Assembly: GCF_004118375.1 (NCBI RefSeq)
Contig: NZ_SDHX01000001.1
Span: forward strand, 1,243,693-1,307,692
Length of the DNA: 64,000 nucleotides
Reading direction: 5' to 3'
DNA from: Oleiharenicola lentus
GTDB lineage: Bacteria; Verrucomicrobiota; Verrucomicrobiia; Opitutales; Opitutaceae
Shown: positions 57,120 through 60,130 of the stretch, piece after piece
How positions within the stretch are numbered: the stretch's first letter is position 1
How the letters are laid out: each line of letters starts with the position of its first letter
The notes under the pieces: generated by a model
Databases searched by the model: none
What the model saw: the letters and a program-made list of their open reading frames with translations, nothing else
What the model was told of the DNA's origin: nothing
Position numbers and translations under genes: made by a program

Positions 57120-57293
57120 CAAGCAGATGCTGCGCACTCCGCGAAGGCATGCAAGTGCGGCGGTGTGCTAACGAACTCCCCGGCTTGAACCGAAGGCCTG
57201 CCCCGGGATTGGCCGGCGGGCGCAGCCTGCCGGCGGAAATGAGAATCAGCTTCCCATGCCGGGATGCGGCCGTATGGTGCCAACCGGAAACAC

Positions 57294-58145
57294 ATGGGAC
57301 AAGAGACCGTCACGTATCTGACCAACATCATCATTTGCACGATTCTCGCGTGCCTGATGACCCACTACTGGATGGCGCAGGGACGGACGGCGGCGATGCG
57401 CTATTGGATGATCGCCGCGTGGATCATGACGGTGGCCGATGTGTTTTTCGCGATGCGGTCCGGCTTACCGTATTGGTTTGGACGGTTGGTGCCGCCGTTG
57501 CTCGTGACGGCCGGGCATGCCGCCCTGTTCCTCGGCACGCAGCGCACCGCAGGTTTGCGCCTCCGGAAACGGCTTATCTGGGGCGTACTCGGACTGCATG
57601 CAGCCAGCCTGATCTTTTTCATCTGGCAGAATGAGTATTCCAGCTGGCGCATGGTATCCAACGGGCTCATCTGGGGCGGGCTTTCCCTGGCCTCGGCCTG
57701 GTGCCTTTACCGCGCATCGCCTTATTACTTCAAACCGGCCTTTGCCCCGGCCAAAATTTTTCTGGCCCATGCGGTCTTTCATGCCCTCCGCGTGGCCTTG
57801 GCGGCGCTGTTCACCCTGCAGGGGTGGGAGGGCGCGGCCTTGGCTCTGCAAGTTGTCGGTGATCTCGAAGTCAGCTTCTTCATGGTCGCGCTGTTTGCCG
57901 GCATCCTGATCGCCAACCTCCAGGTCCGCCACGACGAGCTCTCCAGCGCCCATGCCGAGGTGCAAACCTTGTCCGGTTTGTTGCCGATCTGCGCCTGGTG
58001 CAAAAAAGTCCGCAACGACAAGGGTTACTGGCAGCAGTTGGAGGAGTATTTTTCCTGCCGCAGCCAGATCACGTTCACTCACGGTGTTTGTGTTGATTGC
58101 CTGGAAGACCAGAAGGCGGAGAGCCGGGAACTCAGCCGGCGCTGA
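57294..58145 (+). CDS. Seven-helix membrane protein with C-terminal Cys/His zinc motif
   Basis: 283 residues from the ATG at 57294 (MGQETVTYLTNIIICTILAC). Seven hydrophobic segments occupy about 1-215, a 7TM-sensor-like layout. The tail has LPICAWCKKVRNDKGYWQQL followed by THGVCVDCLE. This 'LPICxxCKKxRxDxxYWxQ...HGxCxxC' module is common at the ends of PAS, GAF and receiver proteins in Verrucomicrobia and Planctomycetes, and probably binds zinc. A signalling role is likely but no output domain is attached. Confidence 0.78.
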   Translation: MGQETVTYLTNIIICTILACLMTHYWMAQGRTAAMRYWMIAAWIMTVADVFFAMRSGLPYWFGRLVPPLLVTAGHAALFLGTQRTAGLRLRKRLIWGVLGLHAASLIFFIWQNEYSSWRMVSNGLIWGGLSLASAWCLYRASPYYFKPAFAPAKIFLAHAVFHALRVALAALFTLQGWEGAALALQVVGDLEVSFFMVALFAGILIANLQVRHDELSSAHAEVQTLSGLLPICAWCKKVRNDKGYWQQLEEYFSCRSQITFTHGVCVDCLEDQKAESRELSRR

Positions 58146-58268
58146 TGGGGTGGGATTACCGGACGGGGTCCCTCCTTGATGGTCACATAAGATGATGGCT
58201 GCGAGGGTTTAGAAAAATAACAGCCCCTTGCTTGCATTCTGGGCCAAGCAAACCATTTTGGTCGGCGA

Positions 58269-58364
58269 TGGACGGGGTTGGTAACCGTCCAGTTGTTCTA
58301 TGAAACAGTCTGAACCCCTCACGGGGAACGGACTCTCAAGCCGCCTAGGGCGGCAACAAAGGAG
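58269..58364 (+). ncRNA. Structured 5' leader (candidate cis-regulatory RNA) of the micropeptide gene
   Basis: Three hairpins precede the ribosome site. The first is TGGACGG/CCGTCCA (58269-58291). The second is AGTC-TGAA-CCCC-TCAC-GGGG-AACG-GACT (58307-58334), with a symmetric internal loop. The third is GCCGCC-TAG-GGCGGC (58340-58354). AAAGGAG (58358-58364) then sits 10 nt before the ATG. I do not recognise it as a known riboswitch class. Confidence 0.45.
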
Positions 58365-58374
58365 ACGATAAGTC

Positions 58375-58470
58375 ATGCTGACCATCGCCACCATTGGAGT
58401 AGCTTGGTTCGCCGCCGTCGTGATTTATTTCATGGCCGGTCGCGATCGCCGGGTGCGCTCCTATCGCTAA
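58375..58470 (+). CDS. 31-residue membrane micropeptide
   Basis: The frame encodes a hydrophobic helix (TIATIGVAWFAAVVIYFMAG) and a basic tail (RDRRVRSYR), the form of single-span small membrane proteins, inserted with the tail inside. The start is well supported: AAAGGAG lies 10 nt before the ATG. A strong terminator begins 10 bp after the stop. It therefore looks like a free-standing transcription unit with a structured leader. I do not recognise the peptide. It could be a small subunit of a membrane complex, a stress-linked micropeptide, or a type I toxin-like peptide. Confidence 0.72.
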   Translation: MLTIATIGVAWFAAVVIYFMAGRDRRVRSYR

Positions 58471-58480
58471 GAAAACAACG

Positions 58481-58513
58481 CCGCCCCGGGGGATTTCCTC
58501 CGGGGCGGTTTTT
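58481..58513 (+). terminator. Rho-independent terminator of the micropeptide gene
   Basis: CCGCCCCGG-N10-CCGGGGCGG (9-bp stem) followed by TTTTT. On the minus strand it could also serve the gene ending at 58555. Confidence 0.9.
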
Positions 58514-58554
58514 CTTTGGCGGGGGCAAAGAGAGCCGCAGCGGAAGCTGCAGCC

Positions 58555-59446: not shown

Positions 59447-60130
59447 TTAGCGCGCATTTCTGCCCTTGAACAGTCCAAGGCACACCAAGCCCAAGCCGAT
59501 CAACAGGGCGGTGTTGCCGCCATCTGGCACCAAGTTGTTGCCACCGGCATCATGGGAGAAGGGGGCGAACTTGATTTTCAGCTCTCCGTTTTGCTTGGTG
59601 GAATAGTTGTAGAGGTCAAAATGGATCCCGGTTTCCGGGGCCAGACCGCTCAAATCGATGGAGAATGCGGCGAACCGCGAGTTGCCAGTATTGCTCTGGA
59701 TCGGTCCGGTGTGTTCGCCTACAACTGACTGGACATCATAGTTGGTGAACCGGTTCGAATTATCAGAAGTAGAGAAGGTGAATGCGAACTCCTTGTAGTA
59801 GGTCGGAAAGATGTCGTGGCTGGGCAGTAAGGTGGGAGTGCCCCAGCTCATGTCCGAAGTGACGTTGACCGTGGTTCCGTTGAACTTGAAGGAACCGTAG
59901 TTCCCTGACGGCGTGGCCGGAGTCAAAGCGGCCGAGATGTAGTAGGTGCCGCTCGGAGTAAGCCCGTTGAACAGGGCAAAGAGGGTGAACTCCGGGCTGC
60001 TGGCTAACGTCGTTTCGGTCGCGGCATCATATGCGGCGTTGGACGCATCAAGTTGAAGGGTCGGGATACCATAAGCGGTGGTTCCGAACACGGTGGCGGC
60101 TGCGACTAATGCGATGAAAGGTTTCTTCAT
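59447..60130 (-). CDS. VPDSG-CTERM-type sorted secreted protein
   Basis: 227 residues with a signal peptide (MKKPFIALVAAATVFGTTAY). It ends in LVPDGGNTALLIGLGLVCLG and FKGRNAR, the VPDSG/VPDGG sorting tail with hydrophobic helix and basic end. The mature part is a Ser/Thr/Asn-rich beta-sandwich-like region (SGTYYISAALTPATPSGNYG, FAAFSIDLSGLAPETGIHFD). Like the gene at 28.65 kb it should be exported and processed by an exosortase, and it too has a sigma-54-type promoter, at 60153-60167. It is followed by a clean terminator, so it is monocistronic. Its A+T content is higher than that of neighbouring genes. Confidence 0.87.
   Translation of the reverse strand: MKKPFIALVAAATVFGTTAYGIPTLQLDASNAAYDAATETTLASSPEFTLFALFNGLTPSGTYYISAALTPATPSGNYGSFKFNGTTVNVTSDMSWGTPTLLPSHDIFPTYYKEFAFTFSTSDNSNRFTNYDVQSVVGEHTGPIQSNTGNSRFAAFSIDLSGLAPETGIHFDLYNYSTKQNGELKIKFAPFSHDAGGNNLVPDGGNTALLIGLGLVCLGLFKGRNAR

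Follow-up and report, generated by a model that had tools for sequence, protein, structure and literature searches.

A conserved mini-gene of Opitutaceae with a structured leader RNA and a predicted membrane micropeptide

Results

Layout of the mini-gene

The window, which is the whole 64,000-nucleotide stretch of Oleiharenicola lentus DNA analysed here, contains at 58231-58515 a compact unit. From sequence and fold, it consists of a promoter-like element, three hairpins (P1, P2 and P3), the sequence AAAGGAG, a 31-codon ORF and a 13-bp terminator, in that order. The unit is present in one copy in the 4.7-Mb genome. Its features are listed below.

58231-58259, + strand: promoter-like element CTTGCA-N17-CATTTT, with A/T-rich DNA upstream; TTG-N19-CA spacing in 12 of 12 genus members
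58264-58297 (coordinates approximate), + strand: hairpin P1, core 58270-58275 with 58285-58290; predicted fold
58295-58305, + strand: linker GTTCTATGAAA, GTTRATTGAAA in the majority of relatives; sequence conservation
58308-58333, + strand: hairpin P2 with AA/AA internal loop, outer stem 58308-58312/58329-58333, inner stem 58315-58318/58323-58326; covariation in 15 sequences
58340-58354, + strand: hairpin P3, 58340-58345 with 58349-58354; covariation in 15 sequences
58358-58364, + strand: Shine-Dalgarno sequence AAAGGAG; AAGG(A) kept in relatives
58364-58374, + strand: possible 3-bp mini-hairpin GAC-GATAA-GTC between Shine-Dalgarno and start codon; seen by eye, too short for certainty
58375-58470, + strand: ORF of 31 aa, MLTIATIGVAWFAAVVIYFMAGRDRRVRSYR (ATG 58375, stop 58468-58470); 18 relatives, pN < pS in 66 of 66 pairs
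58480-58515, + strand: intrinsic terminator, 13-bp stem and U tail; terminator scan, GAAAAYNACGCCGCC-type terminator at the equivalent site in relatives

An earlier note on this DNA had described a single compact unit with AAAGGAG and a one-helix peptide with an Arg-rich tail, and direct reading of the sequence and the relatives bear this out. The unit does not begin at 58269, as that note had it (58269-58513), since the promoter-like element precedes that position. Upstream, on the same strand (57264-58145), lies a gene for a 293-aa membrane protein with a C-terminal CAWCKKVRNDKGYWQQLEEYF motif and no match in Pfam or NCBIfam; this neighbour is found also in G113 only. The downstream flank is a 116-aa ORF on the opposite strand with no Pfam match. 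Farther on, at 59447-60130 (- strand), a 227-aa protein of secreted type gave a weak match to VPDSG-CTERM (E 0.011, below the cut-off).

TTG-N19-CA recurs at a constant distance in each of the 12 genus members, mostly as CTTGC...CATNTT with A/T-rich DNA ahead, and we read this upstream element as the putative promoter of the unit. Exact CTTGC-N18-CATNTT occurs three times in the genome, and the other two occurrences are in or beside coding sequence. The spacing of CTTGNN-N17-CATNTT is identical to that of E. coli dnaK P1, and the genome encodes a 393-aa sigma factor that scores 169.5 bits against the RpoH model, below the cut-off of the model. A heat-shock sigma promoter was nevertheless rejected and the sigma factor left unassigned, because the pattern was found in no other clear promoter and is absent from the hsp20 genes.

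The terminator had been called strong with a stem of 9 bp; the stem has 13 bp (11 G-C) before the U tail. A terminator scan returned four terminator-like sites against 3.2 in shuffles, and the site of the unit has by far the longest stem. It is kept in all relatives, and is potentially bidirectional because an A-rich stretch (58471-58478) precedes the stem. A GAAAACAACGCCGCC-type terminator also stands behind unrelated ORFs in other Opitutaceae genera (L011, L013, L017, L025), and we therefore regard it as a common terminator module of the family.

Fold and covariation of the leader

The RNA from 58240 to 58375 folds with a predicted energy of -52.2 kcal/mol (z -2.92; equalled by 2 of 200 shuffles). 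The fold gives the three hairpins seen in the earlier note, and pairing in P2 and P3 is supported by covariation. P2 comprises an outer stem of 5-6 bp, an AA/AA internal loop and a 4-bp stem capped by UCAC. The internal loop had been drawn as symmetric TGAA/AACG; the loop itself stands, but its size does not, and 2x2 (AA/AA) is the better description, with the U and G that had been placed in it pairing as U-G and G-C. On its 5' side the loop is AA or GA in the majority of members and on its 3' side almost always AA.

The leader structure was built on four members and then used for aligning 15. Both sides change in 7 of the 13 pairs of P2 and P3 taken together (four of eight in P2, three of the five modelled in P3), a count from an alignment that was fitted to the structure and so favours it; the helices are short, though, and the alignment is nearly ungapped there. 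Standard pairs form in 94.8% of P2 and P3 cells (97.3% in P3), versus 32-51% with slid structures, and none of 500 shuffles reached any of the covariation measures. Compensating changes include GUCUG/CGGAC to GCCCG/CGGGC, and GCUC/GAGC, in P2, and GCCGC/GCGGC to GCTGC/GCAGC in P3 of G187. A covariation search had been suggested in the earlier note, and these paired changes in relatives are its outcome.

A P1 hairpin is predicted at the same site in most relatives; no covariation count is given for it because its length is too variable for the pairs to be aligned. In the more distant G028, G003 and G239 a P3-like hairpin still precedes the Shine-Dalgarno sequence, but their P2 is different. A pseudoknot between the linker (GUURAUUGAAA) and the P3 loop could form at least 4 bp in 9 of 15 members, but the members' own pairings did not surpass permuted ones (811 of 5000). 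By eye, GAC...GTC or ACG...CGT with a variable loop lies between Shine-Dalgarno and ATG in most members, and the mini-hairpin at 58364-58374 possibly shortens the spacing between the two.

The leader RNA is thus structured and covaries; a covarying structure upstream of an ORF is one general criterion for a cis-regulatory element, the other being a signal-dependent change in expression of that ORF. The earlier note had gone as far as a new cis-regulatory RNA: the structured, covarying leader is there, and cis-regulation by it is plausible. No part of the window matched an Rfam family at its gathering threshold; sub-threshold matches were weak and caused by the terminator. The unit resembles Rfam cis-regulatory leaders in its conserved covarying hairpins immediately 5' of an ORF, but belongs to no family at gathering score.

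The peptide

The peptide of the window has a single hydrophobic stretch (Kyte-Doolittle mean of 2.1 for residues 2-20) and a C-terminal net charge of +4. In the 18 aligned peptides, which are 27-31 aa long, M1, T3 and W11 are invariant, V9 and A21 nearly so, and D stands at position 24 in most. The hydrophobic stretch followed by a basic tail recurs in most members, whereas the tails of G030 and G092 are slightly negative (net charge near -1). Across the 12 members of the genus mean pN is 0.23 versus a pS of 0.48, with most variation at third codon positions, and pN is below pS in 66 of 66 pairs, which are not independent of one another. The ORF evolves under purifying selection. The membrane micropeptide of the earlier note is thus a conserved one-helix peptide with 18 members.

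No match to the peptide was found in Pfam, NCBIfam, PADLOC or PHROGs, and the best E value in a PDB profile search was 0.15. An order-wide peptide search gave only weak matches outside the family, at a search depth that is poor for 30-aa peptides.

Distribution, neighbourhood and losses

The unit is found in 12 of the 21 genomes of the genus of the window; six further genomes that carry it belong to four other genera of Opitutaceae.

Same genus: G000 (this genome), G071, G113, G130, G161, G187, G198, G230, G231, G232, G233, G234
Other genera: G092 and G030 (g31); G028 (g29); G003 (g4); G239 and G241 (g38)

Searching 200 family genomes at the DNA level, together with a peptide search, yielded clear matches within the genus and a single one in a different genus. 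We also scanned 252 family genomes with a pattern (AAGG, ATG, a 76-106-base gap and the terminator motif), which matched 16, comprising 14 real members and two chance hits (G015, G150). G187 came from the DNA and peptide searches and G230, G234 and G241 from the leader model; trained on four members, this model led to those three further genomes with the same peptide downstream in each. In a species-wide scan the pattern gave nine real matches, all of the same kind as the Opitutaceae members; seven others, from outside Verrucomicrobia, code for unrelated sequence and are chance hits. A search for the peptide beside the same leader in Opitutaceae, as proposed earlier, thus recovers the unit in 18 genomes of five genera; conservation of neither pairing nor peptide in any relative would have spoken against the unit, and both are conserved.

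The flanking genes are mostly unshared between members, and a conserved operon partner is absent. Local synteny links G000 with G113, and another set of members shares surroundings with a SEC-C-like protein and a YsxC-like GTPase (motifs identified by eye). Because the flanks differ, we regard the unit as a stand-alone gene. It is lost in about 9 of the 21 genus genomes, including some close relatives; among the nine is G175 (L006), where a remnant retains the terminator but just the 3' half of the ORF. These losses fit an accessory function. A phage or plasmid origin was rejected: phages and IMG/VR contigs gave no match and plasmids a single weak one.

Access to the Shine-Dalgarno sequence

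The leader had been likened to an RNA thermometer controlling the micropeptide, and its hairpins do sit immediately 5' of a strong Shine-Dalgarno sequence. We modelled Shine-Dalgarno access with partition functions from 10 to 45 C in the 12 genus members and two more distant ones. In the genus, AGGA is predicted to be unpaired at about 0.3-0.95 with little change over this range (0.73 to 0.75 for the window's own sequence). A clear rise, from 0.17 to 0.56, was obtained only for G092, one of the two distant members. As modelled, the ribosome-binding site in most genus members is neither sequestered at low nor freed at high temperature, and the thermometer is set aside as very improbable.

Discussion

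We favour, with a probability of roughly 0.55, a self-contained gene that encodes an accessory or regulatory micropeptide of the inner membrane and whose leader sets the synthesis of this peptide, controlling or protecting the mRNA. This reading is based on the recurrence of the same unit in 18 genomes of five genera, the covariation in P2 and P3, the purifying selection on the ORF, the differing flanks and the losses. The unit would be transcribed from its own promoter, probably into an RNA of about 250 nt ending at the terminator. The 5' leader would fold into P1, P2 with its purine internal loop, and P3, with the Shine-Dalgarno sequence placed between P3 and the start codon. Translation would yield a peptide of about 30 residues, predicted to insert as one membrane helix with its basic tail in the cytoplasm. 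The leader could set the amount of peptide through mRNA stabilisation, through binding of a protein, RNA or ligand to P2, or both; it may also only protect the mRNA, without regulating.

CydX, KdpF and MgtS are small inner-membrane subunits or regulators of about 30 aa, and the genes of CydX and KdpF usually adjoin those of their complexes. The peptide of the window is like these three in size, one-helix anatomy and putative accessory character. Unlike CydX and KdpF, it has no conserved neighbour; nothing links it to a partner complex, and it matches no Pfam or NCBIfam family.

The main rival to the accessory micropeptide is a type I toxin mRNA, in which the peptide would damage the membrane and an as-yet-unseen small antisense RNA would pair with the structured leader. 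We consider this unlikely, though it has real points in its favour. Membrane type I toxins are commonly shorter than 60 aa, hydrophobic and of one predicted helix with a cationic C-terminus (PMC8309996), as is the peptide in most members, and structured leaders, such as the one here, are usual among toxin mRNAs (PMC11228461). The unit is also dispensable in the genus, and a set of related peptides exists. TisB, Ldr, Fst, AapA1 and TimP (PMC8309996, PMC11228461) share with it the short single-helix peptide, the cationic tail, the structured leader and a terminator of its own. Here, however, there is one copy per genome, with no tandem repeats, and no sequence relation to these toxins in the libraries searched. 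A weak search found no antisense RNA: a consensus scan (itself a weak test) of the opposite strand around the unit detected nothing resembling a sigma-70 promoter. Moreover, the models show a Shine-Dalgarno sequence that is not strongly sequestered, and the tail charge is about -1 in two members (G030, G092).

The RNA could instead be the main product, as a small or dual-function RNA, with the peptide secondary. The compact terminated transcript, its lack of links to neighbours and the conserved single-stranded GUURAUUGAAA, a potential seed, are compatible with this. Yet conservation of the ORF, with its start signal and reading frame, extends more widely than that of the leader sequence. The G003 unit is barely detected by the leader model although its peptide is clear. 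We judge this explanation improbable. That a chance ORF lies beside chance hairpins might be entertained from the shortness of the ORF and from a fold that alone reaches just z -2.9, but it is refuted by conservation, covariation and coding selection and retains practically no probability.

No paper turned up in a text search combining Opitutus or Verrucomicrobia with small ORFs or noncoding RNA. The phylum, which has little small-protein or RNA annotation, gains here a conserved structured leader and a family of membrane micropeptides. Deletion and overexpression should be simple to interpret, since this short unit is present once per genome and missing in some close relatives.

Related micropeptides

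A peptide-profile search revealed further micropeptides in Opitutaceae; we call the unit of the window type A. Type B peptides have 30-31 aa (MIAALAVAWLAVVGLVLIARADYGRRPLTR in G003) and occur clearly in 12 genomes of eight genera. Their leader carries a nearly invariant hairpin, GGCC-GAA-GCUC-N4-GAGC-AA-GGCC, together with AAAGGA and a terminator. Types A and B have in common a related helix, a D-Y/R tail, a P2-like hairpin, AAAGGA and the terminator, whereas the type B leader lacks P3, lies mostly behind a tRNA end and is not detected by the type A leader model. From shape and position we infer that the P2-like hairpins of the two types are homologous.

Most type B units lie within tRNA arrays, with as many as 23 tRNA genes in 3 kb (L179, at G003:C1 ~1,306,515, L178, L181, L176, L185, L180 and L182). 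The leader begins right after the CCA end of tRNA-Asn in L180 and of tRNA-Gln in L182, so tRNA 3' processing may create the mRNA 5' end. In L179 it follows the CCA of a cloverleaf-like sequence for which ARAGORN and Rfam give no call. This sequence (L179:1335-1413; same site in L174, L176, L181 and L185) has a CCA end, an unusual T-loop and C33, and is possibly a decayed or unusual tRNA.

A further micropeptide variant, from genus g11 (L186, L187, L195), encodes MIALIIAWVAVAGIFVIAGYDYNSVKE behind a leader hairpin GCC-RAA-GCUCCGUG and ends in the terminator CTCCGGCCCGGA. It is a tentative and rather doubtful idea that types A, B and g11 form a lineage-specific set of Opitutaceae membrane micropeptides and have in common an undescribed cis-acting element: a hairpin just 5' of the ribosome-binding site whose internal loop is of purines (RAA/AA), bound by one cellular factor or ligand and attached in type B to tRNA 3' ends, whose processing would create the mRNA 5' end. 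If the P2 hairpin were such a shared binding site, one controller would serve the whole micropeptide group.

Type C, common in the genus, has 56-63 aa, two hydrophobic stretches and the tail DYR. It is like type A in its related helix and D-Y/R tail, but has two helices and a TATA-type promoter. In this genome it lies at G000:C2:508211-508393 (L208), with a TTGGCT-N17-TATAGT promoter and a terminator, and the second half of its peptide resembles that of the window.
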